Positions 26,312 to 60,400 of a DNA stretch of 64,000 nt are shown here, piece after piece (the stretch's first letter is position 1; each line of letters opens with the position of its first letter). The position numbers were made by a program, and so were the translations under genes. Source of the stretch: Streptomyces lycii (lineage in GTDB: Bacteria > Actinomycetota > Actinomycetes > Streptomycetales > Streptomycetaceae); contig NZ_WHPN01000351.1 in the NCBI RefSeq assembly GCF_009735685.1, forward strand, positions 25,749-89,748, in the 5' to 3' direction. The notes below the pieces were generated by a model. The model was given only the letters and a program-made list of their open reading frames with translations. It was not told where the DNA came from and did no database searches.

Positions 26312-26353
26312 CAGGGCCGGACGCCCGTCCGCGCCGCCGCCTCCTCCCGGCCG

Positions 26354-26395
26354 TCAGCCCGCGGTCAGTTGCCCGTCAGTGCCACGGTCAAGAAT
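26354..26395 (+). promoter_or_regulatory. SARP operator and -10 of the polyketide operon
   Basis: Three TCAG heptads start at 26354 (TCAGCCC), 26365 (TCAGTTG) and 26376 (TCAGTGC), exactly 11 bp apart. Seven bp later comes the -10-like AAGAAT (26390-26395). Direct heptad repeats in 11-bp steps, about 8 bp before the -10, are the known layout of SARP binding sites. The first gene starts at 26432. Confidence 0.8.
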
Positions 26396-26692: not shown

Positions 26693-26730
26693 TCCGCGTA
26701 ACGCCGGGCGTTGAGAGAGAAGAGGCAGCG

Positions 26731-28008
26731 GTGAACAGCGAACACCGGACACCACGCCGGGTCGTCATCACGGGTCTGGGTGTGGTCACCAGTATCGGCA
26801 CCGGGGCGGCGGAATTTCTTTCCGGCCTCCGCACCGGCCGCAGTGGCGTCAAGCCGATCACTTCCTTCGACACGGCCGGCTACGCGCACGCCAACGGCTG
26901 CGAGATAGACGATTTCGACCCGGCCGAGTGGATCGAGAACATCGACCCGGACGAACTCGGCCGGGCCAGCCAGTTTTCCGTCGCCGCGGCGCGGATGGCC
27001 GTGACCGACGCGGGAATGGAGCACGAGGAACTGCGGCGGCGCCGGGTCCTGGTGTCCGTCGGCACCACCGACGGGGAGTCGCACGATCTGGACACCCTGA
27101 TGGGCCGCCAGCTGGAGGCCGGCCCCGAGTCCCTGGACCCGGGCGTGGCCCGCCGCTCCGCCGCCGGGCTGCTCTCCAGCAGCGTGGTGCGCGAGCTGGA
27201 GCTGACCGACGTCGAGGCCGTCACCATTCCCACCGCCTGCGCGGCGGGCAACTACGCCATCGGCTCGGGCTACGACGCCATCCGCGCCGGCGAGGTCGAG
27301 GCGGCGCTGTCCGGAGGGGCCGACGCGGTCTGCCGCAAGACCTTCACCGGCTTCTACCGGCTCGGCACCATCGCGCCCGAGGTGAGCCAGCCCTTCGACA
27401 CCGACCGCAAGGGCATCCTCACCGGGGAGGGCGCGGGCATCCTGTTCATGGAGAGCCTGGACTCCGCCCTGGCCCGCGGCGCCCGGATCTACGCCGAGGT
27501 CCTCGGGTACGGGCTGAACTGCGACGCCCACCACGCGGTCGCCCCGGACCGGGACAGCCTCGCCGCCTGTATCGAGGTGGCCCACCGCAACGCCGGTGTG
27601 AAGCCGGGGGACATCGACTTCATCTCGGCGCACGGCACCGGCACCAAGGCCAACGACGTCACCGAGGCCGGGGCGATCCGGCAGGTCTTCCCCGACCCGC
27701 CGCCGACCGTCTCGGTGAAGTCCATGCTCGGCCACACCATGGGCGCCGCCAGCGCGCTGGCCTCGGCCGCCTGCGCGCTGTCCATCACCGAGGGCTTCAT
27801 CCCGCCGACCATCAACCACCGGCAGACCGACCCGGAGTGCGGTCTGGACCCGGTGCCCAACGAGGCGCGCACCGCCGATGTCCGCATCGTGCAGAACAAC
27901 GCGCTGGCCTTCGCCGGGAACAACGCCGTACTGATCCTGGGGCGCTACGAAGGCCCGGAGCCCGTCGGCTCGGCCGGCCGGCCCGCCGCCGGACAGGGCG
28001 CGGCATGA
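26731..28008 (+). CDS. Beta-ketoacyl-ACP synthase, KS-alpha type
   Basis: 425 residues from the GTG at 26731. The full catalytic set is present: Cys170 in TACAAGN, His301 in SAHGTGTKAND and His335 in LGHTMGAAS. It is a FabF-type condensing enzyme and, with the Cys-less partner at 29794, should form the KS/CLF heterodimer that elongates the chain with malonyl units. The closest type I can name is the KS of highly reducing type II systems that make polyenes (ishigamide, aryl polyenes). The C-terminus carries ~20 extra Gly/Ala residues. Stop and next start overlap (ATGA). Confidence 0.93.
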   Translation: MNSEHRTPRRVVITGLGVVTSIGTGAAEFLSGLRTGRSGVKPITSFDTAGYAHANGCEIDDFDPAEWIENIDPDELGRASQFSVAAARMAVTDAGMEHEELRRRRVLVSVGTTDGESHDLDTLMGRQLEAGPESLDPGVARRSAAGLLSSSVVRELELTDVEAVTIPTACAAGNYAIGSGYDAIRAGEVEAALSGGADAVCRKTFTGFYRLGTIAPEVSQPFDTDRKGILTGEGAGILFMESLDSALARGARIYAEVLGYGLNCDAHHAVAPDRDSLAACIEVAHRNAGVKPGDIDFISAHGTGTKANDVTEAGAIRQVFPDPPPTVSVKSMLGHTMGAASALASAACALSITEGFIPPTINHRQTDPECGLDPVPNEARTADVRIVQNNALAFAGNNAVLILGRYEGPEPVGSAGRPAAGQGAA

Positions 28009-28838
28009 GCGTGGCGGAGCCGCGGTTGCGCCGCCCGTCCGGCACCGACGACCCGCTGCGGGTCCTCATGCTGCACGGACTCGGCGGCAAGACCACCGTG
28101 TGGGACCGGCTGGCGGACCGCGCCGACCGGACGCTGGAGCTCTGGGACGTGGAGCTGCCCTGGCGTGCCATGGCGGGCAGCGAGAGCTGGGGCACGCTGC
28201 CCGACCCGGCGCAGTTCCTCGTCGACCTGGTGGGTGAGGACACCGGCCGGTTCGACGCGGTGCTCGCCCATTCCTACGCGGCGAACCTGCTCACCGAAGC
28301 GATGGCGGAGGACCGGATCGCGCCCCGGCCCACCGTGCTGATCAGCCCGTTCTACCGGTCCAGCCCGCAGGACTTCGACTGGTCGGTGATCTCGTACTAC
28401 CTCAACGACTTCCACCGCGTCTTCGAGGAGGCGCTGGAGGTCGGCGAGACCGGCCGGTTCGGCAAGGCACACCGCGACTGGATGGCGCTGCGGCTGCGCG
28501 ACCAGATCGGGCCGTACGGCTGGATGCGGTTCTTCGAGGCCTATCTGCGGTCCCCGTTCATCGACCGGGGCGCCGTCCGGTCGCCGCTGCTCGTGCTGTC
28601 CGGGGAGAAGGACATCGCGGCGCGCCCCGGGGACGGCCGCGCCCTCGCGGCCGGGATCCCGGACGCGCGCTACGAACTCCTGGCCGGCTGCGGTCACTTC
28701 CCGATGGTGGAGCGCCCCGATCTCGTCACCCGGCTGGTGTGCGACTTCCTCGCCGGTGCCGGACGTCCGCAGCGGTGCGGCGCGGCGGCGTCCCGGCCCT
28801 CGCCCTCGTCCTTCCTGTCCGAATTGGAGATGTCATGA
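28005..28838 (+). CDS. Alpha/beta hydrolase
   Basis: 277 residues from the ATG at 28005, overlapping the KS stop by 4 bp. LRVLMLHGLGGKTTVWDRL gives the oxyanion loop. The nucleophile is Ser in LAHSYAANLL, the acid probably Asp in SGEKDIAAR and the base His in AGCGHFPMVE. It may release or edit the polyene chain, or catalyse a cyclisation. There is no signal peptide. The last ~25 residues are low-complexity. Confidence 0.85.
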   Translation: MSVAEPRLRRPSGTDDPLRVLMLHGLGGKTTVWDRLADRADRTLELWDVELPWRAMAGSESWGTLPDPAQFLVDLVGEDTGRFDAVLAHSYAANLLTEAMAEDRIAPRPTVLISPFYRSSPQDFDWSVISYYLNDFHRVFEEALEVGETGRFGKAHRDWMALRLRDQIGPYGWMRFFEAYLRSPFIDRGAVRSPLLVLSGEKDIAARPGDGRALAAGIPDARYELLAGCGHFPMVERPDLVTRLVCDFLAGAGRPQRCGAAASRPSPSSFLSELEMS

Positions 28839-29797
28839 GCAAGAGCACCACCGCCGTGGACGGCGCGACCCAGACGGAGATCCGGCCTCGCTACGAGGGT
28901 TCGAACATCTGCACCTGGATCGGCTTCAAGCACGTCAACTACATGGTCGAAGAGGCCGTCTACGACCACCTGCGGCAGCTCGGCCTCCCGGCCGGGAAGC
29001 TGTACGAGCGGCACGGCCTGGGTGTCGACATCACCGATATCGACACCAAGATCCGTACGGCCTTCCACATCGACGACCTGGCGACGGCGACCGTGACCCC
29101 GGCCGCCGACAAGGGCGACGGACGCCGCTTCACCGTGGAGATGACCGTCGAGCGCGAGGGCGAGACGGTGAAGGCCGTCACCTCGAAGGTCGCGGTGCAG
29201 TTCCGGCTCGACCCGCACGGCCACCCGGCCGAGGAGCCGCCCGCCGAGCTGGCCGGGCACGTCACCGACCGGCTCGGTGCCGGCGCGGAGCCGATCCGGG
29301 TGGAGCCCGGCACGGACCCGGCGGACCTGCTGACGGCGGGCAAGAACGCCTTCGCCTGGACCTGGCGGATCCCGTACTTCTACTGCCACTTCACCGAGCG
29401 CATGCAGATGTCCGGCTACCTGCGGCAGATGGAGGAGGTCGTCGACCTGTTCCTGGAGGACCGCGGCGTCTCCATCAAGACCCTGCTGGACGAGCAGGAC
29501 TGGATCCCGGTGGTCCCGCACTCGAAGATCACCATCCTGGACGAGGCCAACATGGAGGAGACGCTCTACACCGTCTTCACCGTGGAGAACGTCTTCAAGC
29601 GCTTCACCTACACGGCGCGCATGGACACCTACGTCCTGCGCGACGGCGTGCTCGTGCCGACCGCCACCGGCCGGATCACCCACGGCTGGGCCGTGATCGA
29701 GAACCGGCGCGACTGGAGCCTGGTCGACTTCGACGACCGCCTCGTCAACGGCCTGAACGGCAAGGCGGGCAAGATCACGGCCCGGGGGACGGCGTGA
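28835..29797 (+). CDS. Double-hotdog acyl-ACP thioesterase-like protein
   Basis: 320 residues from the ATG at 28835, with an ATGA overlap. Two hotdog halves are seen. The first has WIGFKHVNYMVEEAVYDHL, like 4HBT thioesterases. The second has FKRFTYTARMDTYVL. Family members hydrolyse acyl-ACP or acyl-CoA thioesters. The operon context suggests hydrolytic proofreading or release of polyketide intermediates. It could alternatively be a dehydratase-like hotdog protein, since no catalytic residue can be assigned with certainty. Confidence 0.7.
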   Translation: MSKSTTAVDGATQTEIRPRYEGSNICTWIGFKHVNYMVEEAVYDHLRQLGLPAGKLYERHGLGVDITDIDTKIRTAFHIDDLATATVTPAADKGDGRRFTVEMTVEREGETVKAVTSKVAVQFRLDPHGHPAEEPPAELAGHVTDRLGAGAEPIRVEPGTDPADLLTAGKNAFAWTWRIPYFYCHFTERMQMSGYLRQMEEVVDLFLEDRGVSIKTLLDEQDWIPVVPHSKITILDEANMEETLYTVFTVENVFKRFTYTARMDTYVLRDGVLVPTATGRITHGWAVIENRRDWSLVDFDDRLVNGLNGKAGKITARGTA

Positions 29798-30918
29798 CGT
29801 CCGCCGCCACCCTGGACGCGGCGGGACCGGCCGGGAGTGGGCCCGGTTCCACCGGCGAGCTGGTGTTCTCCGCCTGGTCGGCGGTCTCCCCGTTCGGTAC
29901 GGGCGCGGAGGCGTACAGCGCGGGCCTGCGGAGCGCGACGAGCGCCGTCGGCGCTCTCGACCCCGAGGCGTACCCGGGCCCGTACGAGCGGGCCGGGCTG
30001 GTCGACGGCTTCAGCGCCGCGGCCGCCCTGGGCAAGAAGGGCACCCGCACCATGGACCGGGTCACGGCGCTCGCCGTGTCCACCGTCGGAGAACTGCTGG
30101 AGCGCTGCGGGAGCAGTCTGCTGGAGCGGCCCGAACGGGTCGGCCTGGTGCTGGGCACCGGGTCCGGCAGCGTGCAGAGCATCATGGACTTCACCCGTGA
30201 CTCGCTGACCGGGGACCGCCCGTATCTGGTGGACCCGGCCAGGTTCCCGAACACGGTGATGAACCGGGCGGCCGGGCAGAGCGCCATCTGGCACGGCATC
30301 AAGGGGCCGAACACCACCATCGCGGGCGGCTGGCTGACCGGGCTGCTCGCGCTCGGCTACGCCGCTCGGCTGCACCGCGGCGGGCACTGCGACCGGGTGC
30401 TGTGCGGTGCCGCCGAGGAGTTCTCGGTGCAGCGCGCCTGGCTGGAGTGGCACGCGGCGGAGGAAGCCGCCCGGCCGCCGCTCGGCGAGGGCGGTGCGGC
30501 CTGGCTGCTGGAGCCCGGGGACGAGGCGCGCGCCGCCGGCCGGGAGCCGCTGGCCCGGCTGCTGACCACGCGCTTCCGCGCCTACCACCGGCCGCAGGAC
30601 GCGGGCCCGGCGCTGACCGAGTGCGTCCGCGGCGCGCTGGCGGAGGCCGGGGTCTCCGGCGGCGCGGTGCGCCTGGTCGCGCCGCTCGGCGCCCCCGGCG
30701 AGGAGTACGCGGTGCTGCGGGCGCTGCCGGCCGGCAGCGACCCGGAGTGGATCCGCTGCCGTCCCCTGCTGGGCGACGCGTCGGCGGCGGCCACCGGTTT
30801 CCAGCTGGCGGCCGTGCTGGCCGCCGCGGGTGACGGACGTCCCGCGGCGGGAGAGCTGTCGCTGGTCACCGGCATCGACCGGGACGGAACGGTGGGCTGC
30901 GCGGTGCTGGCCCGCTGA
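29794..30918 (+). CDS. Chain-length-factor-like KS (KS-beta, Cys-less)
   Basis: 374 residues from the GTG at 29794, with GTGA overlap. It has the thiolase fold of FabF (VGLVLGTGSGSVQS, NTVMNRAAGQSAI). At the active-site position the sequence reads TTIAGGWLTGL, so the nucleophilic Cys is missing, and the two catalytic His motifs are also absent. This is as expected for a chain length factor. It should pair with the KS at 26731 and set chain length. Two genes separate KS and CLF, unlike the usual adjacent KS-CLF order. Confidence 0.85.
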   Translation: MTSAATLDAAGPAGSGPGSTGELVFSAWSAVSPFGTGAEAYSAGLRSATSAVGALDPEAYPGPYERAGLVDGFSAAAALGKKGTRTMDRVTALAVSTVGELLERCGSSLLERPERVGLVLGTGSGSVQSIMDFTRDSLTGDRPYLVDPARFPNTVMNRAAGQSAIWHGIKGPNTTIAGGWLTGLLALGYAARLHRGGHCDRVLCGAAEEFSVQRAWLEWHAAEEAARPPLGEGGAAWLLEPGDEARAAGREPLARLLTTRFRAYHRPQDAGPALTECVRGALAEAGVSGGAVRLVAPLGAPGEEYAVLRALPAGSDPEWIRCRPLLGDASAAATGFQLAAVLAAAGDGRPAAGELSLVTGIDRDGTVGCAVLAR

Positions 30919-31024
30919 AGGCTCCGACCGACGACGACGGCCTCCGGGCCCCGGCGTACGTCTCCTCCCGCTGCCGCGGCGGGGCCGTACGCCGGGCCGG
31001 CCCGGGGCGAGAGGAGGACAGCCC

Positions 31025-31429
31025 ATGATGCTCGAACAAGCTCTGGCCATCGCCGAGGTGCCGGCCGGACCGGACCGGACGGACGGCGCGCCGGAGGACA
31101 GCGAGGAGACCGTCGTACGGGGCACCGTCACGGTCGACGCCGGGGACCCGTTCCTCGCCGGGCACTACCCGGGCTTCCCCCTCGTGCCCGGCTTCAGTCT
31201 GGTCCAGTACGTCCACGACCTGGTGACCGGCGCGGCCGCGGTGCCGCCGGAGAATCCCGCGGTGGTGCGGAAGGCCCGCTTCCTGAGCCCGGTGCGGCCG
31301 GGTGAGGAGATCGTCATCGAGGCCCGCGTCGGCCGCGACGCGAAGGGCGTCCACACCACCGCGACGGTCTCCGCGAACGCGCGGCCGGCCGCGGAGATCC
31401 GGCTCGACCATCCACAGGAGAACTTGTGA
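31025..31429 (+). CDS. FabA/FabZ-type dehydratase, catalytic half
   Basis: 134 residues from the ATG at 31025, with strong ribosome site gaggagga. The active-site segment is [20 protein letters not shown], with His47 in the place of the FabZ catalytic His. It follows the CLF after a 106-bp gap. It should dehydrate beta-hydroxyacyl-ACP to the trans-2-enoyl product. It overlaps the next hotdog gene, and the two are likely halves of one heterodimer. Confidence 0.82.
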
Positions 31430-32046
31430 CAGGCACAGAAACCGGGACCGCGGCCGGGCCCGGCACCGGCACCGGCACCAGTACAGGCGCCGACGCCGAC
31501 CGCATCGCCTCGGTCATCCCGCACCGTCCCCCGGCCCTGCTCGTCGACCGGGTCACCGAGGTGGAACCCGGGCGGCGGCTGGTCGCGGTCACGGACGTCC
31601 GCCTGCCCGCCGGCCGGCGCGGCACCGGGACGGGATCGGGCCCGGCCGGGGCCGAGTACGCGTACCCGCTCGGCCTGCTGCTGGAGTCCTGGGCGCAGGC
31701 CGCGGTGCTGCTCGCGTGCTGGGAGAAACCCAATCCGGACGTGCTGGCCGGCCAGGTGGCGCTGCTGGCCGGGGTGCGCGACGCGCGCGCCCTGGCGCCG
31801 GTGCGGGCGGGCTCGGTCCTCGAGCACGAGGTGCGGGTGCTCCGCGACCTCGGCGACACCGTCATCACCACCGGCCGCAGCACCGTGGCCGGCCGCCCGG
31901 TCCTGGAGATGGGGCAGCTCACCCTGGCGCTGCGCGGCGCCGGGACCCTGGCGCCCGCACCCGCGGGAACGACCGCCGGACCCACCGGCGCGGTCACCGC
32001 GGAAGCCACCGGAACAGTCACGGAGAACACGGAGAAGAGGTCATGA
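31426..32046 (+). CDS. FabZ-like dehydratase partner without the catalytic His
   Basis: 206 residues from the GTG at 31426, overlapping the previous stop by 4 bp. [20 protein letters not shown] is the FabZ N-terminal signature. [17 protein letters not shown] matches the central helix, but the HFPG segment that holds the catalytic His is replaced by a Gly-rich loop. In aryl-polyene systems, ApeI and ApeP form such a heterodimeric dehydratase; this pair fits that model (inference). The N-terminal ~25 and C-terminal ~40 residues are low-complexity Gly/Thr/Ala repeats. Confidence 0.75.
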
Positions 32047-32792
32047 TGTCCGAGGAGAACCGGCGGGTCGCGCTGGTGACGGGAGGCTCCCGCGGCATCG
32101 GCCGCAGCGTGGTCGCCCGGCTCGCCGCCGACGGCTACGACGTGGCGTTCTGCTACCAGCGCGACCACGAGGCGGCCGAGGCCACGGCCAAGGAGGCGGA
32201 GGCCGCGGGAGCCGCGGTGCTCGCCCGGCGCGTGGACGTGGCGCAGCAGAGCGAGGTCGAGCAGTTCGTACGGGCGGCCGAGAAGGAACTGGGCCCGGTG
32301 CACGCCGTGGTGTCCTCCGCCGGCATCATCCGCGACAACCCGCTGATCATGCTGTCCGAGCAGAACTGGCAGGACGTGCTGCGGGTCAATCTGGACGGCA
32401 CCTACAACGTGTGCCGCGCGGCCGTGTTCTCGATGATGAAGCGGCGGGCGGGCACACTGGTGACCCTGTCCTCGGTCGCCGGGGTGTACGGCAACGCGAC
32501 CCAGACCAACTACTCGGCGTCCAAGGCCGGGATCATCGGCTTCTCCAAGGCGCTGGCCAAGGAGGTCGCCCCGCGCGGCATCCGGGTCAACGCGGTGGCG
32601 CCCGGCTTCATCGACACCGACATGACCTCGGGCCTCTCCGGCGAGACCGGCGGGAAGCTGGCCGAGCGCATTCCGCTGGGCCGCTTCGGCCGGCCCGAGG
32701 AGGTCGCCGACATGGTGTCCTTCCTGGTGTCGGACCGCGCGTCCTACGTCACCGGGCAGGTGTTCGGGGTCGACGGCGGGCTGGTGCTCTGA
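32043..32792 (+). CDS. 3-oxoacyl-ACP reductase (FabG-type ketoreductase)
   Basis: 249 residues from the ATG at 32043, with ATGA overlap. The NADPH-binding loop is [10 protein letters not shown]. The catalytic set is Ser in [11 protein letters not shown] and Tyr/Lys in YSASKAG. The FabG-like GFIDTDM and VDGGLVL ends are normal. It should reduce beta-ketoacyl-ACP after each extension, before dehydration by the neighbouring hotdog pair. No enoyl reductase gene is in the operon, so double bonds should be kept, giving a polyene. Confidence 0.93.
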
Positions 32793-33499
32793 TGGCCCGC
32801 GGCGCACCGCGCTTCTACTTCTCGCTGCGCAGCCCCTACTCCTGGCTGGCCTACCGGGAGCTGACGGAGCGGCACCCGGACGTGGCCGCCGCCGTGGAGT
32901 GGCGGCCGTTCTTCGAACCGGACGCGACGAGCGAGCGGCTGCTCACCGAGCGTGGCGGCTCGTTCCCGTACACCCCCATGTCGCGGGCCAAGCACCTCTA
33001 CATCCTCCAGGACATCGGGCGGATCACCAAGGAGCGGGACGTCCCGCTGAACTGGCCGGTGGACCGGGACCCGGTGTGGGAGATCCCGCACCTGGCCTAT
33101 CTGGTGGCGGACCGGGAGGGGCTCGGTCAGCAGTACATCGCGGCGGCCTACCGCACCCGCTGGGAGGAGGGCCGCGACATCTGCGACCGCGACGTCGTCG
33201 CGGGGCTGGGCACCGAACTCGGCCTCGACCCGCGGGAGCTGGCGGACGCCGCCGACGACCCCGCGCTCCGCGAGGAGGGCGTGCGGCTGCTGCTCGACAT
33301 CTGCAAGGACGGGGTCTTCGGCGTCCCGTTCTTCGTCCACGGGTTCACCCGGTTCTGGGGACTGGACCGGCTGCCCGGCTTCGTCGGGCATCTGCGGGAG
33401 CGGGCGGTTCCCGCCGCGGCGATGCCGGCGCCCGAGTCCGGCCCGGTCGGGCTCGGCTCCCGCACCACCGACGACGGTCATGCCGGCGGCTGCGGCTGA
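32792..33499 (+). CDS. DsbA-fold 2-hydroxychromene-2-carboxylate isomerase-like protein
   Basis: 235 residues from the ATG at 32792, overlapping the FabG stop by one base (TGATG). RFYFSLRSPYSWLAY is the start of the HCCA-isomerase/GST-kappa fold. WPVDRDPVWEIPHLAYLVA and GVFGVPFFVHGFTRFWGLD are its other landmarks. It has Ser in place of the DsbA CxxC site. Family members isomerise double bonds, often with a thiol cofactor. In a polyene operon it may change the geometry of a double bond (inference). Confidence 0.8.
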   Translation: MARGAPRFYFSLRSPYSWLAYRELTERHPDVAAAVEWRPFFEPDATSERLLTERGGSFPYTPMSRAKHLYILQDIGRITKERDVPLNWPVDRDPVWEIPHLAYLVADREGLGQQYIAAAYRTRWEEGRDICDRDVVAGLGTELGLDPRELADAADDPALREEGVRLLLDICKDGVFGVPFFVHGFTRFWGLDRLPGFVGHLRERAVPAAAMPAPESGPVGLGSRTTDDGHAGGCG

Positions 33500-33526
33500 C
33501 CACCACATGTGCCCTGGGAGGGCCAG

Positions 33527-34708
33527 ATGTTCGATCTCGACGAACGGCTGAACGCCTTGCGCCGGCAGTTCCAGGAGTGGGGCCACGACTTCCGCCGGCA
33601 CGCCCTGGAACTGGACGCCGACCCGGAGGCGATCCGGCGCTATTTCGATCTGCCCGCCGTCCGCCACCTGGCGACCATGGGCATCCCGGCGGAGTACGGC
33701 AACGACCCCGAGCCGATCGCCGGCCGGCGCTACTACGGCGAGTCCGCCCTGGAGCGCGCCGTCATCATGGAGGAGCTGGCCTGCGCCGACGCGGGCATGC
33801 TGGTCGCCTCGCCGGGGCCGCTGCTGGCCGGTGTGCTGGTGGACCTGCTCGCCGACGAGCGGCAGAAGGAGTGGTTCTACGGGCGGATGACCGCCGAGCC
33901 GCTGTGGACGTTCTTCGCCCTCACCGAGCCGGACCGCGGCTCGGACGCCGGGGCCATGACGACCGCGCTGACCCCCGCCCCGGACGGCGCCGGCGGGGGC
34001 CTGCTGCTCAGCGGCGCCAAGCGGTACGTCGGCAACGCGGCCCGGGCCCAGATCGGTGTGGTGTTCGCCCGCACCCGGCCCGGCCCGCTGGGCGTGACCG
34101 CGGTGTTCGCCGAATCGTCCGCCGCGGGCTTCCGGGCCGAGGCGCTGCCGATGATCGGCCTGCGCGGCGCGATGATCAGCTCCATCTCGCTGGACTCGGT
34201 GGCCGTGCCCGAGGAGCACGTGCTGGGCCGGCATCTCTCGCCGAGCCGCCGCGGCACCTGGGCGTTCGTCCAGACGTTCAACCGGCTGCGGCCGGGGGTG
34301 GCCGCGATCGCGGTGGGCATCGCCCGCGCCGCGCACACCTATGTGTTCGCCAACCGGCGGAACTTCAGCCGCTCCGAACGGGACCGGCTGGACGAGCTGG
34401 GGCGCCGTATCAACGCCACCCGGAAACTGGTGCACCGGGCCGCCGCGGCGGTCGACCTGCGCACGGCCAACGGCCATCTCGCCTCGGCGGCCAAGGTGCG
34501 GGCGGCGCAGCTCGCGGAGGACGCGACGCTGGAGGCCTGCTCCTTCTTCGGGCCCGGTGCCCGGTTCGACCATCCGCTGCTGGACAAGCTGGCCCGGGAC
34601 GCGCGGGCGATGGAGTTCCTGGAGGGCACCGGGCACATGCAGCGGCTCAACCTCTTCCAGGGCTACCAGTCGAGCAAGTTCGACCGGAACGAGCCGTTCC
34701 CGGTCTGA
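33527..34708 (+). CDS. Acyl-CoA/ACP dehydrogenase
   Basis: 393 residues from the ATG at 33527, with gggagg 6 nt upstream; a GTG at 33509 is less likely. The FAD-binding motif is FALTEPDRGSDAGAM. The C-terminal helical bundle ends FLEGTGHMQRLNLFQGY, with Glu at the catalytic base position. It should oxidise a saturated acyl thioester to the alpha,beta-enoyl form. It may desaturate the aminobutyryl starter or another unit. Last gene of the polyketide operon. Confidence 0.88.
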   Translation: MFDLDERLNALRRQFQEWGHDFRRHALELDADPEAIRRYFDLPAVRHLATMGIPAEYGNDPEPIAGRRYYGESALERAVIMEELACADAGMLVASPGPLLAGVLVDLLADERQKEWFYGRMTAEPLWTFFALTEPDRGSDAGAMTTALTPAPDGAGGGLLLSGAKRYVGNAARAQIGVVFARTRPGPLGVTAVFAESSAAGFRAEALPMIGLRGAMISSISLDSVAVPEEHVLGRHLSPSRRGTWAFVQTFNRLRPGVAAIAVGIARAAHTYVFANRRNFSRSERDRLDELGRRINATRKLVHRAAAAVDLRTANGHLASAAKVRAAQLAEDATLEACSFFGPGARFDHPLLDKLARDARAMEFLEGTGHMQRLNLFQGYQSSKFDRNEPFPV

Positions 34709-35246: not shown

Positions 35247-36005
35247 TCAGCCCAGCGCGGCGTCCTGGGTCAGGATCGACTGGTAGATCCTCGACAGACC
35301 GCGGCCGGGTTCGAGACCCAGCTCCTTGACCATCCACCGCCGGGTGCGGTGGAAGACGTCAAGGGCCTCGGTCTGCCGGCCGTTGCGGTAGAGGGCGAGC
35401 ATCAGCTGCTCGCTGAAGCGCTCCCGGCCGGGGTGCTGCGCGATGAGCTGGAGCAGCTCGGGGATGACTCCACGCGCGTCACCCAGGCTCAGTTTCGCCG
35501 CGATCAGGTCCTCCCTCGCGCACAGCCGCTGCTCCTGGAGATGGGCGGTCTCCAGCTGGATGCGCGGTCCCTCGTAGATGTCGAACAGCGCCGGTCCGCG
35601 CCATTCGTTCAGGGCCTGCTCCAGCAGCCGTACGGACTCCTCGGGCTCGCTCTGCACCCGCGCCGAGCCGCGCGCGGCCAGGGACAGGAAGCGGTTGGCG
35701 TCGACGGACTGCGGGTCCAGGTCGAGCACGTAGCCGCCGCTGACCGTGCGCACGACCTCGTCGCCGCGCCGGCCGGTCAGCGTGCCCAGGATCTTCCGGG
35801 CCCGGAGGACGTTGGCCTGGAGGGCGTTGCGCATGTTCTCCAGCTCCCGGTCCCCCCATAACTCCTCCATGAGCTGTTCGAACTGGAGAGGTGTACCCGG
35901 TGGCAGCGCCAGCAGCGCCAGCACGGTCCGGACACGCTTGGAACAGACATGTTGGCGCACCTCTCCGTGGACGAGTGTCAGAGGTCCGAGCAGCTGTATT
36001 TCCAT
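35247..36005 (-). CDS. SARP-family pathway activator with a TTA codon
   Basis: 252 residues from the ATG at 36005, with ribosome site ggggaga. An N-terminal OmpR-type winged helix (residues ~1-95: EIQLLGPLTL, LMEELWGD, VRTVSGGYVLDL) is followed by the bacterial transcriptional activation domain (~100-245: LYRNGRQTEALDVFHRTRR, LGLEPGRGL). SARPs bind direct heptad repeats in 11-bp steps and recruit RNA polymerase. Four such arrays lie at cluster operons (26354, 44235-44263, 44360, 59065). Leu49 is encoded by TTA (35861-35859), so its translation should need the bldA tRNA and be tied to development. No array is seen at its own promoter. Confidence 0.93.
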   Translation of the reverse strand: MEIQLLGPLTLVHGEVRQHVCSKRVRTVLALLALPPGTPLQFEQLMEELWGDRELENMRNALQANVLRARKILGTLTGRRGDEVVRTVSGGYVLDLDPQSVDANRFLSLAARGSARVQSEPEESVRLLEQALNEWRGPALFDIYEGPRIQLETAHLQEQRLCAREDLIAAKLSLGDARGVIPELLQLIAQHPGRERFSEQLMLALYRNGRQTEALDVFHRTRRWMVKELGLEPGRGLSRIYQSILTQDAALG

Positions 36006-36223: not shown

Positions 36224-38443
36224 TCAGCGCGTCGGCTGCGAGGCCGTGAGCGGCGCCTCCCGGACCGCCGTTCCGCCACCGCCCGTGTGGCGGGCGAAGT
36301 GGGGGCGCGAGGGCCACCAGAGCACCGGCGCCAGCAGCTTCATCGCGGCGGGCAGGATGAGGATCCGGACGACGACGACGTCCAGCAGGACGGCGACGCA
36401 GAGGCCGAAGCCCAGCTGCTTCATCTCCAGCAGGTTCGTGAACATGAAGCTGACGAACACGGAGACCATGACCACCGCTCCGCCGGTGACCACCCCGGCC
36501 GACCGGGCGATGCCCTCCTGCACGGCGTCGGCGGCGCTGCGGCCCTGCTGCACCGCCTCCCTGATCCGGCTCACCATGAACACGTTGTAGTCGGTGGAGA
36601 GCCCGAAGAGGATGACGAAGAGGAAGAGCGGGACGCGGGAGACGATGAAGCCGTCGGAGTCGTAGGCGAGCTGGTTCTGCATCCAGTCGGACTGGAAGAC
36701 CAGCACCAGCAGGCCCAGCGCGCCGGCCGCGGACGCCACGTTGAGCAGGGTGGAGACCACCGCGATGGGCACCGAGCGGAAGGCGGCGAACATGACCGCC
36801 AGGCTCAGCACCAGCACCGCGCCGATCACCCAGGGCAGCGCGTCCATCTGGCTGTCGAGCACGTCGGCGTTGCGGGCGACGTCACCCGACACGGCCGTCT
36901 CGGCGCCGGGGATCGCGCCGACGGTGTCCGGGACCAGCGTGCCGCGCAGCCGCTCCAGGGTCTGCTGCGCCTTGTCCGAGTCGAGGGCGTACGGCGTGTG
37001 GAGCAGGACCGAGCCCGTCCTCCCGTCCTCGGCGGTCTCCAGCTTCGGCTTCTCCTCGGTGCCGAACAGCGGGTCCTGGCCGGCGGCCCGGACGAGCCCG
37101 TCCATGGCGTCCGGGAGTTCGCCGCGGTGCGCGTCGTCGGTGCGGACGACCACCAGGTAGGCGGCGCCCTGGGAGGGGAACTGCTCCACCATCCGGTCGC
37201 GCGCCTTGACGGCCTCGACCTTGGGGAGCGTGCTGACCTCGGTGGAGGACAGCTCCATGCCCAGCGCGGGCAGCCCGAGGCCGCAGATGAGCGCGAGTCC
37301 CGCGACCAGCGAGGCCACCGGCCGCCGCATGCCGGGGCGGAGCAGCGTGGTCCAGAGGCGGCCCGGGCCGTCCTGGGCGGCGGAGCGGCCGGCGATGCGG
37401 CCGATGAGCGGGACCCGGGGGCGGTCCAGCGCACGGCCCAGCTTGACGAGCATCGCGGGCAGCACGGTCAGCGAGGCGGCCATCACGATCGCGACGACGC
37501 TGATGGAGGAGACGGCCAGCGAGGAGAAGACCACGTCGCCGACGACGAACAGGGCGGCGAGCGACACCACGACGGCGCAGCCGGAGACGATGACGGTGCG
37601 ACCCGCGGTGGCGGCCGCGACGAGGACCGCGGCCTCCTGGTTGAGCCGGCCGCCGGAGCGGGCCTTCTCCTCGCGCACCCGCTTGATGAACAGCAGGGAG
37701 TAGTCGACGCCGACCGCCATGCCCATGAGCAGGATCAGGCTGTTGTTGGCCCCGACGCTCGGGAAGACGTGGGAGAAGAGCTGGGAGAGGCCCATCGCCG
37801 CGGCGATCGCGGACAGGGCCAGCAGGACGGGGACCCCGGCGGCGACGACGGCGCCGAAGACGACCATCAGGATGAGGAGGGTGAGCGGGAGGGTGATGCG
37901 CTCGGCCGTGGCCAGGTCCTCCGCCATCGACTCCGAGACGCCCTGTCCCATCGAGAAGTGGCCGGTCTGGGCGACCTGCACCTGCGGATGGGCCTTCTGG
38001 ACGTCGGCGGTGATGTCCAGCAGGGCCGGGATGTCCTCGGAGATCTCCGCGTCCTCGCCCTCCATGGCGAGGTGGACCAGGACGGCCTGGCCGTTCGGCG
38101 CCCACTCGGTCTCGCCGACCTCGCCGACGGACGGGGCGCCGGCCATCCGCTCGGCGGTCTCCTGGGCCGCGGCGGTGGCCGCGGCCCGGTCGATCGTGTC
38201 ACTGCCGGGGCGCGGGGTGATGACGACCTGCTCCATGAGCGGGTCGAGGATCCCGGCGTCGGCCGCGATCGCCTCGGCCCGGCCGGCCTCGCCGACGCGG
38301 TAGTCCACGCTGTCGGCCTGCCGCGTTCCGGCCATCGAGCCGAGGGCCAGGCACACCACCACCAAGGCCAGCCATCCGATCATCGCGCGCCACGGGTGGC
38401 GCGCGCTCCACATGGCCATTCGGACGGTTAACCGCTGTTCCAT
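36224..38443 (-). CDS. MMPL/RND-family exporter with a TTA codon
   Basis: 739 residues from the ATG at 38443 (ribosome site gggg-ag); a GTG at 38446 lies directly before it. Two repeats of one membrane helix, a large extracytoplasmic domain and five membrane helices give about 12 helices. MGMAVGVDYSLLFIKRVREE and FGLSTDYNVFMVSRIREA are the Asp/Tyr motifs of MmpL proteins in helices 4 and 10. It uses the proton motive force to export lipids or lipopeptides; aryl-polyene clusters also carry an MMPL gene. Leu5 is encoded by TTA (38431-38429), suggesting bldA control of export. Single-gene unit with its own terminator. Confidence 0.92.
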   Translation of the reverse strand: MEQRLTVRMAMWSARHPWRAMIGWLALVVVCLALGSMAGTRQADSVDYRVGEAGRAEAIAADAGILDPLMEQVVITPRPGSDTIDRAAATAAAQETAERMAGAPSVGEVGETEWAPNGQAVLVHLAMEGEDAEISEDIPALLDITADVQKAHPQVQVAQTGHFSMGQGVSESMAEDLATAERITLPLTLLILMVVFGAVVAAGVPVLLALSAIAAAMGLSQLFSHVFPSVGANNSLILLMGMAVGVDYSLLFIKRVREEKARSGGRLNQEAAVLVAAATAGRTVIVSGCAVVVSLAALFVVGDVVFSSLAVSSISVVAIVMAASLTVLPAMLVKLGRALDRPRVPLIGRIAGRSAAQDGPGRLWTTLLRPGMRRPVASLVAGLALICGLGLPALGMELSSTEVSTLPKVEAVKARDRMVEQFPSQGAAYLVVVRTDDAHRGELPDAMDGLVRAAGQDPLFGTEEKPKLETAEDGRTGSVLLHTPYALDSDKAQQTLERLRGTLVPDTVGAIPGAETAVSGDVARNADVLDSQMDALPWVIGAVLVLSLAVMFAAFRSVPIAVVSTLLNVASAAGALGLLVLVFQSDWMQNQLAYDSDGFIVSRVPLFLFVILFGLSTDYNVFMVSRIREAVQQGRSAADAVQEGIARSAGVVTGGAVVMVSVFVSFMFTNLLEMKQLGFGLCVAVLLDVVVVRILILPAAMKLLAPVLWWPSRPHFARHTGGGGTAVREAPLTASQPTR

Positions 38444-38592
38444 CACGACTCCCCATTGGGTTCCAGATCGGAGGGTGCAAGCTTTCTCGTGTAAGTTCAG
38501 ACTGACAGGTGAATGGAATAGCCGTCAACTGTAGGAGCGGGCTCATTTCGAGTTGGCCGGAAGGTGACGCTCCGGCGCGCGGCCGAAGAAAA

Positions 38593-38642: not shown

Positions 38643-39359
38643 CTACCAGCATCTGCTCCCGGCCACGGCCGTACGGGCCACGGCCCGCTCCTCCTTCTTG
38701 CCGGCCGACGCGTACGCCTCGGCGAGCAGCTCCGAGACATAGCCGACCTGACCGGGCCCCGTCCGCAGATAGCCGCTCGCGCCCAGCAGCTTCACCTGGG
38801 CGCGGTCGGTGGCCGTCAGCCGCCTCTGGAGGTCTCCCAGCAACGCCGGCGACAGCTCCGCCGGCCGGGCACCGTCCAGCACCGCGCGGACCTCCAGATG
38901 CTCGATGAGGGCGTCGGCCACCGCCGACTTCACCAGCTGCTGGTGCAGCAGCGGGGAGCCGCCCGTCGTCCGGCCGCCGAGATGCGCCACCACCGACTCG
39001 CGCAGCCCCTCGGACAGGCCGAGCCGCAGCCACACCAGCCCCAGCCCCCAGCCCGCCCCGAGGTCCCCGGGCCCGTACTCGACCGCGGAGGGCACCTCGT
39101 GCCGCACCATGACGACCTCACCGCCCGGCAGCTCCGTCCGGGACAGCACCTCCGGGCCGCCCGGGGCCAGCGGGCACGGCCGTCCGCCGTACCAGACCTC
39201 CTCGGCCTTCAGCAGGGTCTCCGGCGCGACCACGCCGTGGCCGTGCGGCCCGCAGGGCAGCATGCCCGGCAGCAGTTCCCCGGCCAGCAGGGCCAGCGCG
39301 GGCGCCGGCCCCCGGTCCCGGGCCGCCCGGTGACAGGCGTCCCACAGGGCCGCGCTCAC
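38643..39359 (-). CDS. Short acyl-CoA dehydrogenase-like protein
   Basis: 238 residues from the GTG at 39359, overlapping the previous stop (GTGA). The C-terminal part (LVKSAVADALIEHLEVRAVL, then QVKLLGASGYLRTGPG) resembles the four-helix bundle at the C-terminus of acyl-CoA dehydrogenases. The N-terminal FAD-binding domain is not recognisable and the protein is about 150 residues too short for a complete enzyme. It may be a partner subunit or a scaffold. It is the last gene of the operon for the aminobutyryl starter. The family call is tentative. Confidence 0.5.
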   Translation of the reverse strand: MSAALWDACHRAARDRGPAPALALLAGELLPGMLPCGPHGHGVVAPETLLKAEEVWYGGRPCPLAPGGPEVLSRTELPGGEVVMVRHEVPSAVEYGPGDLGAGWGLGLVWLRLGLSEGLRESVVAHLGGRTTGGSPLLHQQLVKSAVADALIEHLEVRAVLDGARPAELSPALLGDLQRRLTATDRAQVKLLGASGYLRTGPGQVGYVSELLAEAYASAGKKEERAVARTAVAGSRCW

Positions 39360-40228
39360 CGCTCCGCCTCCACCGGTCCCACGGCGCACAGACCGAGCCA
39401 GCGGGTCACCGGGTCGTGGTCGACCAGCACCAGCGGCCGGTCCGCGGGACGCGGGCCGGCCAGCGCCGACCACAGCCCGGTGCACGGGAAGCCCTTGCCC
39501 GTCCGGCGGACCTCGGCGAGCCCGGCCGGCAGGTCGCGAGCCGGGTCGACACCCGGCCCGGCCACGACCGTCGCCCGGCCCTCGTACCGCGCCAGCTCGC
39601 CGGCGAGCACCTCGCGTACGTCCGGGGTCGCCACTCCGGTGAGGTACCGCAGATCCGGCCGCGGTCCGGCCTGCTGTGACGCGGACAGCAGCAGGGCCAC
39701 CCCCGCGTCGCCGCCCAGCTCGGCCGGCCCGGTGTCGTACGGCAGCGAGGCCTGGTCCAGGATCAGCACCACGGCCGCGCGCAGCCCGTGCCGTCCGGTG
39801 TAGCCGGCGGCGAGCCGCAGCGCGGAGAACGGCGTGCAGCTGCCCTGCTCCGAGACGCCGAAGGACAGCGGGCCGTGCGGCCACGCCTCCGAGAGGTAGG
39901 TGGCCGCGGCGTAGCGGCAGTCCAGGTCGGGCGTGGAGTGGGCGACCACGGCCAGCCCGACGGGCTCCGACTCCGCGCCCAGGGCCCCGACCAGCTCCTT
40001 GGACATGGCGGCGAAGGTGTTGCCCGCCCCGCCGCTGACCGCGCCGGGCCGGAACTCGGTCCCGTAGGCCGCGGTCAGATCGGTGAAGTGACGTACGGAG
40101 AAGGCGTCGTCGATGCGGCTTTCACCGGGCGGGAAGACCCGGTGCACGACGCGTTCGAGGCGCAGCGGAAACACTCCGCCGGCGGCGTCCTGAGGTGCGC
40201 CCGCCGGGGGCGCGGCCGTTCGGTACAC
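39356..40228 (-). CDS. Degenerate KAS III-like thiolase-fold protein
   Basis: 290 residues from the GTG at 40228. SEQGSCTPFSALRLAAGY lies where FabH enzymes have the catalytic Cys, and VAVVAHSTPDLD-like segments (LAVVAHSTPDLDCRYAAA) match the thiolase fold. The His motif (LPHQAN type) is absent, and the Asn motif (GNTSA type) is replaced by GKGFPCTGL. It is therefore unlikely to condense by the normal mechanism. It could be an acyltransferase or the inactive partner of the intact KAS III at 43285. It starts 3 bp after the ACP stop. Confidence 0.65.
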   Translation of the reverse strand: MYRTAAPPAGAPQDAAGGVFPLRLERVVHRVFPPGESRIDDAFSVRHFTDLTAAYGTEFRPGAVSGGAGNTFAAMSKELVGALGAESEPVGLAVVAHSTPDLDCRYAAATYLSEAWPHGPLSFGVSEQGSCTPFSALRLAAGYTGRHGLRAAVVLILDQASLPYDTGPAELGGDAGVALLLSASQQAGPRPDLRYLTGVATPDVREVLAGELARYEGRATVVAGPGVDPARDLPAGLAEVRRTGKGFPCTGLWSALAGPRPADRPLVLVDHDPVTRWLGLCAVGPVEAER

Positions 40229-40231
40229 GGC

Positions 40232-40516
40232 TCAGGCGCCCATCTCGCCGAGCAGGAAATCGGCGAGCGTGCGCACCGATTCGAAGTGGCTCATCTCCAG
40301 GTTGTCGGTGTCCAGCTCGATGGAGAACGCCTCCTCCAGCGCCATCAGGAGTTCGAACACCCCGCTGGAGTCGAGGCCGACCTGGTCGAAGAGGCGGGAG
40401 TCCTCGGTGAGGTCGGGCAGGTCGTGGCCCAGCACCTCGGCCAGCGCGGAGGCGATGGTCTCCACGGCCTTGGTCCGGTCGACAGCGGTCGCTGTGGAGG
40501 CGGCGGCGTCAGTCAT
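40232..40516 (-). CDS. Discrete acyl carrier protein, BtrI-like
   Basis: 94 residues from the ATG at 40516. The carrier site is Ser50 in QVGLDSSGVFELL. It follows the decarboxylase gene by 30 bp in the same operon. In butirosin synthesis, BtrI carries gamma-glutamyl and then 4-aminobutyryl as a thioester. The combination here of ACP, ATP-grasp ligase and PLP decarboxylase suggests the same role (inference from context). It is distinct from the polyketide ACP at 26432. Confidence 0.88.
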   Translation of the reverse strand: MTDAAASTATAVDRTKAVETIASALAEVLGHDLPDLTEDSRLFDQVGLDSSGVFELLMALEEAFSIELDTDNLEMSHFESVRTLADFLLGEMGA

Positions 40517-40546
40517 GGCGTGACAGTCCTTTCGGAGAGCGTCGGT

Positions 40547-41845
40547 TCAGTGGCCCGTGGCGGTACGGGAGAGCACGTCGGCCGCGGGGAGGTGCTGCTT
40601 GCGGAGCAGGTCGTCGGGACGGTCCCGGTCGCGGACCAGGTGCGCCTCGCCGTCCAGGACGAGCGCCTCGGCCGGGTGGCCGTGGCTGAGGAAGAGGACC
40701 GGGGAGGCGCTGGGCCCGTAGGCGCCGGACCGTTCCACGCCGATCAGGTCGCCCGGCCGGACGTCCGGCAGCGGGACCTTCTTGCCCAGGGTGTCGTTCG
40801 GGGTGCAGAGCGGGCCGGTGAGGTTCCACGGGCCGGTGGCGGGCTCGTCGGTCCGGTTGAGCACCGTCATGGGGAAGTTGCGCTTGACGAACGACCCGAT
40901 GCCGACGGCGGCCATGTGGTGGTTGGTGCCGCCGTCGAGCACGGCGAAGTTCTCGCCCATGGACGTCTTCACATAGCGCACCGTGGTGACGTAGAGGCCG
41001 AACGGTGCCGTGAGATAGCGGCCCAGCTCCATCACCAGCCGGGTGTCCGGGTGGCGCGAGGCGAACTTGTCGATCACCGGGTTGAGCTGCGAGGCCAGCA
41101 GGTCGAAGTCCAGATCGGTCTCGTTGTCGAAGTACGCCACACCGAGGCCGCCGCCGATGTCGACCATCTCCAGCGGGAAGTCCAGCGCGTCCGCGACCTG
41201 CTCCGCGAGGTCGAAGATCCGCTCGGTGTTCTCCACCACGGCGTCCTCGCTGAGGATCCGGGTGCCCATGTAGACCTGCACGCCCATCAGCCGTACGTGG
41301 CTCAGCGCCGACACCGCCTCCGGCGCCGCGCCGAGCAGCTGCGCGGCGTCGATGCCGAACTGCCGCGGCTTGCCGCCCATCGTGAGGCCGGAACCCTTGA
41401 CGGCGAACTCGGGGTTCACGCGCAGCGCCACGCGTGCCGTCACCGAGCGGTCCCGCGCCAGCTCGTCGATGAGCGCCAGCTCTCCGAAGGACTCGCAGAT
41501 GATCGCGTAGACGCCCTCGTCGAGGCAGGCGGCCAGCTCCGCGCGGCTCTTGCCGGGGCCGAGGAAGAGGATGTCGGCCGGGTCGACGCCGGCGCGCCGC
41601 GCGGTGGCCAGCTCGGCCAGCGAGGAGATCTCCGCGCGGGCGCCGTGGGCGTGCAGCAGGCCGCAGACGGCGATGTTGGGGTTCGACTTGAGGGAGAAGA
41701 AGACCTCCAGGCGGGGGTGCAGCCGGTCCCGGACCGTCGTGATCCGGTCCCGCAGCCCGTTGCCGTCGTAGAGGTACAGCGGGGTGCCGTACCGCTCCGC
41801 CAGCTCCGTGACCCCGATTCCCTGCACCGTGCGTTCAGCGGGCAT
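40547..41845 (-). CDS. PLP-dependent decarboxylase, BtrK/LysA fold
   Basis: 432 residues from the ATG at 41845, with strong ribosome site ggaagga inside the upstream gene. The fold III (alanine-racemase-like) PLP motifs are FFSLKSNPN with the PLP-Lys, DIGGGLGVAYFD for phosphate binding, GPLCTPNDTLG with the active Cys, and GAYG near the C-terminus. The HIGS motif of diaminopimelate decarboxylase is replaced (VQVYMGTRI), which fits members that act on carrier-bound substrates such as BtrK, the L-glutamyl-ACP decarboxylase. The predicted product is 4-aminobutyryl-ACP; another amino acid cannot be excluded. Confidence 0.85.
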   Translation of the reverse strand: MPAERTVQGIGVTELAERYGTPLYLYDGNGLRDRITTVRDRLHPRLEVFFSLKSNPNIAVCGLLHAHGARAEISSLAELATARRAGVDPADILFLGPGKSRAELAACLDEGVYAIICESFGELALIDELARDRSVTARVALRVNPEFAVKGSGLTMGGKPRQFGIDAAQLLGAAPEAVSALSHVRLMGVQVYMGTRILSEDAVVENTERIFDLAEQVADALDFPLEMVDIGGGLGVAYFDNETDLDFDLLASQLNPVIDKFASRHPDTRLVMELGRYLTAPFGLYVTTVRYVKTSMGENFAVLDGGTNHHMAAVGIGSFVKRNFPMTVLNRTDEPATGPWNLTGPLCTPNDTLGKKVPLPDVRPGDLIGVERSGAYGPSASPVLFLSHGHPAEALVLDGEAHLVRDRDRPDDLLRKQHLPAADVLSRTATGH

Positions 41846-43220
41846 GACTCACTCCTTCCGCCACCAGCCGGGCGGTGATGTCCTCATCGAGGGCGGTCAG
41901 CTCGGCGGCCGAAGCGGCCACCACGATTCCGTAGAGACGGCCGTCGTACGCCTCGTCCGGGCGGACCCGGCCTCCGGCGTTGACGGTCGCGAAGTTGTTG
42001 ACGAGCAGGCCGGACCCGCCGGGCGCGGTCAGCAGCGCGTCGCCGAGGATCCGGCGGAAGCCGGCGAAGTCCAGCTCCCGTTCCAGGCGGACCGGGTAGT
42101 GGCGGGCCAGCGCCGTCATGCCGGGGCCCACGAACTGCTCCTGGAGGCGCACCTGGTAGGTCGACATGTTGTTGCGGGCGTTGATCTCCAGGACCGGCCA
42201 CACCCCGTCGGCCTCGTCCAGCAGCGCGTCCACGCCGACGACGCCCGCGTAGCCGTCCGCGGCCAGCCGCTTGCCCAGCAGCTCGGCGGCGGACCGGACC
42301 GCGGCGAGCCGGGACGGCCCGAGCGCGGCCGGGATCCGGTGGCCCTTGTGCACGCCGCCCTCGGTCACGGCGCGCTTGACGAAGTCGAAGTGCACCGCAC
42401 CGTCGTGGCCGACGGTGAACTGGTAGTTCAGATCGCCCTGGTGCGGGACCCACTCCTCGACGGTGAACGCGATGCGGTCCTCCCCGGAGCGGGCCACCTT
42501 CTGCCCGACCATCCGGTGCACCCGGTCCATCCAGCGCTCGTTCTCCAGCACCACGATGCCCTTGCCGGACACACCGAAGGCCTCCTTGACGACCGTACGG
42601 CGGCCCTGCGCGAGCAGCTTCCTGGCGTGGCCGAGCGCTTCGCCCAGCTCGTCGACGGTCTCGCACACCCAGCCCGCGGGCTGGCGCAGTCCCAGCTCGT
42701 CGGCGACCCGGCGGCTGTAGATCTTGCTGTTGACGCTTTTGCAGAGGTCGGCCGGGGAGCCCGCGATCTCCATTCCGGTGCGCCGGCACAGCTCTTCCTC
42801 CAGCACCGACACCCCGTGCGGGAACAGCCGGCAGCCCTGCCCGGCGAGTCCGGTGAGCACGGCCGGCAGTGCGGGGTCGCGCAGGATGTCCTCGGTGACG
42901 TTGCGCTGCGCGTCCTGCTCGGCGACGACATGGACGGTCGGCAGGGCCAGCCCGAGTTCGCGCAGATACGCGAGGTACGCCTCGTCGGGCGCGGTCTTGA
43001 GCACCACGTGGTCGCCCTCGCCCGCCAGCAGCAGGGCGAACTCGTCCATGCGGTTCACCACGGCGCTGCCCGACGCCGCGGAGAAGCGGGGCAGGGTGTG
43101 CTCGCCCTGCGCCCACACCTCCTCGACCTCGAAGTTCCCGAGGAACACGAGTGGCGCGCCGGCCGCTCCGGCCACGGCGCTCTTGAGCCGGCCGGTGAAG
43201 CCGGGCAGGAATTCGTCCAT
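41835..43220 (-). CDS. ATP-grasp amino acid-ACP ligase, BtrJ-like
   Basis: 461 residues from the ATG at 43220, which has gggagaa at the right distance; an ATG at 43238 has a weaker site. The ATP-grasp core shows TVVKEAFGVSGKGIVVL (nucleotide loop) and VWPVLEINARNNMSTYQ (Mg-binding Glu/Asn). In butirosin synthesis BtrJ joins glutamate to the BtrI ACP as a thioester. It overlaps the decarboxylase gene by 11 bp, as expected for a coupled pair. The amino acid substrate is not proven by sequence. Confidence 0.82.
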   Translation of the reverse strand: MDEFLPGFTGRLKSAVAGAAGAPLVFLGNFEVEEVWAQGEHTLPRFSAASGSAVVNRMDEFALLLAGEGDHVVLKTAPDEAYLAYLRELGLALPTVHVVAEQDAQRNVTEDILRDPALPAVLTGLAGQGCRLFPHGVSVLEEELCRRTGMEIAGSPADLCKSVNSKIYSRRVADELGLRQPAGWVCETVDELGEALGHARKLLAQGRRTVVKEAFGVSGKGIVVLENERWMDRVHRMVGQKVARSGEDRIAFTVEEWVPHQGDLNYQFTVGHDGAVHFDFVKRAVTEGGVHKGHRIPAALGPSRLAAVRSAAELLGKRLAADGYAGVVGVDALLDEADGVWPVLEINARNNMSTYQVRLQEQFVGPGMTALARHYPVRLERELDFAGFRRILGDALLTAPGGSGLLVNNFATVNAGGRVRPDEAYDGRLYGIVVAASAAELTALDEDITARLVAEGVSHAR

Positions 43221-43284
43221 GTCTTCTCCCACGTCCATGTCCGGTTGCGGCGGGCCGGGCTCTCTGCTTGCCGTCAGTGGCTCG

Positions 43285-44214
43285 TCAGTGCTGGAGGACC
43301 ATCGCGGCGAAGGACTGGCCGAGGCCCGCCGAGGTCATCAGGTAGTGGTCGCCCGGGTTGATCAGGCCCAGCTCGCGCACGGACTGGTAGTTGATGTAGG
43401 GGTCGGCGCAGAAGGAGTGCCCCGTGGCCCCGATGTTGCCGAGATAGATCTTGTCGGCGGGGATGCCCAGGTTCTTCGCGGCGACGGTCCAGGAGACCCG
43501 GTTGACGTTGTGCGGCAGGACCAGGTCGAGGTCGGCGACGGTGATCCCGGCCTCCTCGGTGGCCGCCAGCACCACTTCCTCCAGGGCGTCCTGGTAGATC
43601 CGTACGGCTTCCTTCGCGAGGTCGCCGACCAGGTCGATCAGGCCGTCCTCACGGCCGCGGATGCGGGCCGCGTAGCCGAGCATCCGGTCCCGGCCGCCGC
43701 CCGGGCCCACCAGGACCGCGGCGGTGGCCTCGCCCATGATCGAGACATCGGCGACCCACTGCGAGAAGGGCGTCAGCGTCTTGTCGCCGGCCAGGATCAG
43801 CGCGAGCGCGTCGGGGTCGCCGTCAGCCTCCAGCAGCATCCCGGCGACGTCGAACGCGAGCAGCCCGGTCGCGCAGCCGTGGTCCGAGACCGCGAAGGTC
43901 GTGGCGTTGCGCAGGCCCAGCGCGTCGCACACGTCGCGCAGCGGGTTGTTGGGGTACGGGGCCGTGGTCCGCAGGCCCTTGGCCCGGACCACATAGCGCA
44001 CCCGGTCCTCCTGGCCGGCCAGTCCGTCGAGCTTGCCGGCCGCGGCCAGCAGCAGCTCGCTCTCGGAGCGGTCCGGTGCCTGGCAGATCCGGTCCAGCCC
44101 GTACAGCCGGGTGAACCTGCGCACCTGCTGGTCGTTGAGTCCCAGGGGTTCCTTGAGGGCGTCCACCGGCACCGTGTCCGGCAGATGACTCGACACTGCC
44201 ACCAATGAGGTCAT
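43285..44214 (-). CDS. KAS III-type condensing enzyme (starter unit)
   Basis: 309 residues from the ATG at 44214. The catalytic set is complete: Cys114 in SDHGCATGLL, His in LPHNVNRVS and Asn in LGNIGATGHS. It is a FabH-like enzyme and likely makes the first C-C bond between the aminobutyryl-ACP starter and malonyl-ACP; an acyltransferase role as in CerJ-type proteins is an alternative. It is the first gene of the minus-strand operon. The -10-like TAGCGT lies 7 bp before the ATG, so the mRNA is probably leaderless. Confidence 0.82.
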   Translation of the reverse strand: MTSLVAVSSHLPDTVPVDALKEPLGLNDQQVRRFTRLYGLDRICQAPDRSESELLLAAAGKLDGLAGQEDRVRYVVRAKGLRTTAPYPNNPLRDVCDALGLRNATTFAVSDHGCATGLLAFDVAGMLLEADGDPDALALILAGDKTLTPFSQWVADVSIMGEATAAVLVGPGGGRDRMLGYAARIRGREDGLIDLVGDLAKEAVRIYQDALEEVVLAATEEAGITVADLDLVLPHNVNRVSWTVAAKNLGIPADKIYLGNIGATGHSFCADPYINYQSVRELGLINPGDHYLMTSAGLGQSFAAMVLQH

Positions 44215-44221
44215 GCGACGG

Positions 44222-44263
44222 ACGCTAGGCAGCACGGCTGACGCCCGGCTGACGCGACGCTGA
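44222..44263 (-). promoter_or_regulatory. SARP operator and -10 of the aminobutyryl-ACP operon
   Basis: Read on the minus strand, heptads TCAGCGT (44263-44257), TCAGCCG (44252-44246) and TCAGCCG (44241-44235) are 11 bp apart. After 7 bp comes TAGCGT (44227-44222). The start codon is at 44214, so a leaderless transcript is expected. Confidence 0.82.
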
Positions 44264-44359
44264 CCGTGGCCGGGCCCCGGCCCGGCGGGTGCCCGCCCGG
44301 GTCTCCGCGGCGTGCCGGCGCCGCGGCGCCGCGGGGATCCGGACGACACCCCCCCCAGG

Positions 44360-44401
44360 TCAGTTCGCCGTCAGCGGGGCGTCAGTGCCGCCCCGGAGCA
44401 T
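44360..44401 (+). promoter_or_regulatory. SARP operator and -10 of the NRPS operon
   Basis: Heptads TCAGTTC (44360), TCAGCGG (44371) and TCAGTGC (44382) lie 11 bp apart, followed after 7 bp by GAGCAT (44396-44401). It is divergent from the array at 44235-44263; the two arrays are 97 bp apart and control opposite operons. Confidence 0.82.
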
Positions 44402-45527: not shown

Positions 45528-45541
45528 GTGGGAGTCGTCCT

Positions 45542-59407: not shown

Positions 59408-59411
59408 CCCG

Positions 59412-60389: not shown

Positions 60390-60400
60390 GGGCGAGACCC

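Follow-up and report, generated by a model that had tools for sequence, protein, structure and literature searches.

Does a single TTA codon in its activator gene place a whole biosynthetic gene cluster of Streptomyces lycii under the control of bldA? A TTA codon in an activator gene, acting as a developmental brake by way of bldA, is well-known textbook biology. The original prediction, made for the window (the whole stretch of 64,000 nucleotides that was analysed), held that one such codon in a SARP gene gates all four operons of the cluster.

The gene in question encodes a small SARP activator of 252 amino acids (35247–36005, − strand), starting at the ATG at 36005, with GGGGAG located 5′ of it. 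Its only Pfam matches are Trans_reg_C (E-value 3.2e-10) and BTAD (1.2e-42), hence a winged helix-turn-helix followed by BTAD in less than about 300 residues, with neither NB-ARC nor TPR. Trans_reg_C and BTAD alone are the definition of a small SARP (PMC12224297). No other SARP-type gene was found in the cluster. Positions 35859–35861 read TAA on the + strand and therefore TTA on the − strand, in frame within ATG GAG GAG TTA TGG GGG GAC, an in-frame TTA being one of the defining features of bldA-dependent (TTA) genes. Counted from the ATG at 36005, this codon is Leu49, so the position and residue number originally given for it are correct. It lies directly 5′ of a near-invariant Trp (E-L-W), and among SARP relatives this is a conserved hydrophobic position. 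The 42 leucine codons of the gene comprise 27 CTG, 13 CTC, one CTT and one TTA, with neither TTG nor CTA, which makes TTA exceptional within it. The gene had also been described as being of very high GC; this holds overall (GC3 of 0.89), but the 5′ third of the SARP relatives is AT-richer (GC3 of 0.83, against 0.93 for the 5′ parts of other genes).

The assumption that only the bldA tRNA reads UUA is consistent with the source genome (7.65 Mb, 430 contigs, 99.99% complete). A tRNA-Leu with anticodon taa, encoded by bldA, was called by ARAGORN at C139:11438, and a degenerate scan of the 430-contig assembly (TTAAR plus a canonical T-arm, a pattern which a non-canonical tRNA could escape) yielded no tRNA-Leu(UAA) besides bldA. 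In S. coelicolor, the bldA tRNA peaks in stationary phase (PMC2000904; PMC11836424).

Strict bldA dependence is not a necessary consequence of a TTA codon. Near-cognate tRNAs might read UUA adequately, leaving the cluster at most weakly dependent on bldA, although most tested TTA regulators are, as a matter of general knowledge, strictly bldA-dependent. A precedent for such leakiness is CcaR of S. clavuligerus, like the protein studied here a small SARP with a TTA codon: a 2002 report by Trepanier, cited in PMC11836424, is said to describe mistranslation of ccaR in a bldA mutant, which sets CcaR apart. UUA is also translated in some bldA mutants according to work on adpA in S. ghanaensis, where an adpA-gusA fusion was still detectable in a bldA deletion, at an about 15-fold reduced level (PMC3814723). 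However, since Leu49 is a conserved hydrophobic residue beside a near-invariant Trp, miscoding at this position may damage the SARP, and adequate reading by near-cognate tRNAs is considered quite unlikely.

The cluster combines a reducing type II PKS with an NRPS and a halogenase. Operon 1 (26432–34708, +), the PKS operon, encodes an ACP, a KS, a hydrolase, a thioesterase-like protein, a CLF, two FabZ-like proteins, a KR, a DsbA-like protein and an acyl-CoA dehydrogenase. It is directly adjoined by FtsW/RodA-type and PBP transpeptidase genes (23385–26311, +), which places the cluster beside a cell-wall locus. Operon 2 (38643–44214, −) encodes a KSIII-like protein, an ATP-grasp ligase, a PLP decarboxylase, an ACP and two unknown proteins. 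The first four resemble the BtrJ/BtrK/BtrI set, in which an amino acid is attached to an ACP and then decarboxylated; this gene set is found together with this SARP in many Streptomyces clusters, and a scan of viral contigs gave no match to the ATP-grasp ligase. Operon 3 (44514–58811, +), whose first start may lie further upstream, encodes an ornithine-cyclodeaminase-like and a PLP synthase-like protein, an NRPS (four C domains, four A domains and a TE) and an ABC permease. The first two genes (44514–46540, +) resemble the SbnB/SbnA pair of diaminopropionate synthesis. Operon 4 (59186–61366, +) encodes an MbtH protein, an ABC ATPase and an ArsR-like HTH regulator and contains no TTA. A further unit (61415–63962, −), with a flavin reductase, a Na+/H+ antiporter and a tryptophan halogenase, extends beyond the window edge and has neither a TTA nor an operator. 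For the combination of a reducing type II PKS, a BtrK-like ligase and a halogenase, no matching product was recognised in the literature. Outside the cluster, a gene whose product has a twin-arginine-type signal peptide carries TTA as its codon 7 (19319–19321, +). On contig C117, right of the window, a putative sensor-domain gene adjoining the cluster (L089, 6066–6689) carries TTA at codon 197 of 207.

Upstream regions were searched for 7-mers repeated at 11 bp, and the motif recovered is a triple repeat, RTCAG-N6-RTCAG-N6-RTCAG, with an 11-bp period. It occurs four times in the window and in none of 100 shuffles (expected 0.00). Over the whole 7.65 Mb genome there are exactly four copies, all 5′ of operons of this cluster, while the reversed control gives zero. 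These predicted SARP operators precede the PKS operon (26353–26379, +), the KSIII–ATP-grasp–decarboxylase–ACP operon (44238–44264, −), the OCD–PALP–NRPS–ABC operon (44359–44385, +) and the MbtH–ABC–HTH operon (59064–59090, +). At all four sites, a −10-like hexamer follows 10 nt after the last repeat (AAGAAT, TAGCGT, GAGCAT and CAGCAT, respectively). A profile built from 57 sites outside the window contains the same RTCAG repeats and an A....T −10 signature at the identical 10-nt spacing, and in related clusters with this SARP equivalent sites precede the ACP1, KSIII, OCD/PALP and MbtH genes. Three heptamers with an 11-bp period, separated from each other by four bases, are an established form of SARP operator (PMC10972967). 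The repeats found here are likewise heptamer-type direct repeats with an 11-bp period, placed over the −35 of the target promoters, where the SARP is predicted to bind. If TAGCGT is the −10 of operon 2, transcription of the KSIII gene would begin at, or right beside, the ATG (about 44214), and the transcript may be leaderless (44202–44264, −).

The operator set thus provides strong circumstantial support for the claim that the SARP gates four operons: the triple repeats stand 5′ of exactly those four, whereas binding and activation are predicted from the sequence. Control of the whole cluster, on the other hand, was overstated, because at least three transcription units carry no operator; a scan with the motif and the profile detected no SARP-type operator 5′ of the SARP gene, the exporter gene described below, or the halogenase–antiporter–flavin reductase unit. 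Autoregulation of the SARP was rejected, as there is no repeat 5′ of its gene in the window; three relatives (L094, L101 and L103) do have a double repeat 5′ of their own SARP gene. A fifth operator was also considered and dismissed: the double RTCAG at 43273–43288 (+) lies where the KSIII gene ends, on the opposite strand, has no gene downstream of it in its own orientation and possibly arose by chance.

The SARP codon is not the only TTA in the cluster, and in this respect the original prediction was incomplete. An MMPL-family exporter gene (36224–38445, −; Pfam MMPL, 1.9e-61) adjoins the SARP gene on its 5′ side, on the same strand, and its Leu5 is encoded by TTA (38429–38431, −). That this TTA lies upstream of the true start was rejected: the first ATG has GGGGAG 5 nt 5′ of it, the following ATG lacks such a sequence, and alignments with homologues extend across this N-terminus. 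Between the exporter gene and operon 2, 5′ of the exporter and after 38643, lies a G+C-rich hairpin with a T-run, which indicates that the exporter is a separate transcription unit. The exporter and SARP genes are separated by a G+C-rich inverted repeat that lacks a T-run. Based on the TTA at codon 5, export is probably gated separately, in parallel with the SARP. The dependence of the product on bldA could then be real and yet run mainly through the exporter, AdpA or another TTA-bearing regulator, the SARP codon being redundant. Two homologous clusters with a TTA-free SARP fit this explanation, L102 having TTA at codon 16 of its MMPL gene and L094 at codon 5 of an adjacent LysR gene. Nevertheless, with operators for the SARP activator in front of four operons, limitation of the SARP would suffice, and a mainly SARP-independent route is considered unlikely.

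When the codon was compared in homologous clusters, as the original prediction had proposed, the TTA at Leu49 turned out not to be conserved. Of roughly 70 related SARP genes, a single one shares TTA at codon 49, that of a distant Actinomadura (L033); no close relative of the same clade does. Conservation in orthologues, a supporting rather than a defining property of TTA genes, is thus absent. The SARP groups with those of Pseudonocardiaceae, Frankiaceae and five Streptomyces clusters, and elsewhere in this group TTA occurs only in Dactylosporangium (L017), at a different codon. The SARPs of the nearest homologous clusters are TTA-free, and gene calls within 20 kb revealed no TTA in the homologous clusters L100, L101 and L103. 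On the SARP tree, the presence of TTA requires at least eight to nine changes.

One TTA in one named gene is not decisive by itself. Three of the 42 called genes in the window contain TTA, and about 2% of Streptomyces genes hold one (PMC11836424), so its chance is a few percent. Among de-duplicated homologues from Streptomycetaceae, TTA is found in 11 of 37 SARP genes against 2 of 208 other cluster genes (Fisher 1e-8, kinship ignored), and 12 of the 13 SARP TTAs lie in the first third of the gene. The codon could be neutral, a by-product of loose codon choice in the 5′ third of a regulator gene with weak expression; enough bldA tRNA would then be present whenever the SARP is transcribed, and the codon would place no practical limit on expression. 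In line with this, the 5′ third has the lower GC3 given above, the position at codon 49 is private to this lineage, and the general ratio of A-ending codons already predicts 6.7 TTAs in the 5′ third against the 12 observed (Poisson about 0.04, kinship ignored). A leucine-specific control (CTA/CTG × TTG), however, predicts only about 1.7, and the SARP gene in the window has its TTA without a single TTG or CTA. Moreover, in a clade of Kitasatospora, Streptomyces and Embleya a TTA is retained in all eight SARPs, at shifting positions (codons 6, 20 or 62/76). The excess of TTA in the SARP family is genuine, yet smaller than the raw contrast, and much of it follows the AT-richer codon use of the 5′ third. 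For the codon studied here, neutrality has a low probability.

With bldA present as the sole UAA tRNA found and four operators in place, the best reading, and a fairly probable one, is that bldA controls the SARP and the SARP the four operons, with the exporter gated in parallel. Both TTA codons, the gene for the bldA tRNA and the operators with their positions are observed, and it is inferred that the SARP binds, activates and depends on bldA. Full-length SARP would depend on the bldA tRNA through TTA49. As long as charged tRNA-Leu(UAA) is scarce, translation would halt or break down at codon 49, which falls within the winged-helix domain, and only small amounts of the activator would be made. 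Once the tRNA accumulates, the SARP would be produced and would bind the triple RTCAG repeats overlapping the −35 of the four promoters, recruiting RNA polymerase to the PKS, starter-unit, NRPS and MbtH operons. Export would be gated alongside by the TTA at codon 5 of the exporter.

Similar arrangements have been described for other pathway activators. In S. coelicolor, bldA is linked to antibiotic production by TTA codons in the activator genes of the ActII-ORF4 and RedZ–RedD systems. The sites bound by ActII-ORF4 are triple heptamer repeats as well (PMC10972967), and the ActII-ORF4 gene is listed with others as a TTA-bearing SARP gene with bldA effects (PMC11836424). Those systems differ from the present one in cluster and operator sequence; in the window the dependence is predicted, and a second TTA is present in the exporter gene. 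According to PMC10786969, peuR, the SARP gene of the peucemycin cluster in Streptomyces peucetius, contains three TTA codons, one of them at codon 52, in a host which lacks bldA, and peucemycin production rises once bldA is supplied. Codon 52 of peuR is near codon 49 of the SARP described here, whose gene, in contrast, has one TTA in a host with bldA.

Effects of bldA on TTA-bearing SARP genes are thus already known, and the least ordinary part of this locus is the combination of fixed operators with a wandering TTA. While the operators stay in place, the TTA checkpoint moves between SARP codons, the exporter and a LysR gene. This might reflect selection at the level of the pathway or drift. 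As a tentative and rather doubtful interpretation, selection would maintain bldA control of the pathway and not of any particular codon or gene, with both activator and exporter being gated in this cluster. The shifting TTA positions offer a small comparative data set on pathway-level selection of bldA control. If the preferred reading, in which bldA acts through the SARP on the four operons, is true, the threefold RTCAG repeat would be a precise operator that defines the regulon, and the cluster could be awakened by expressing a TTA-free SARP together with a TTA-free exporter, or by supplying bldA.
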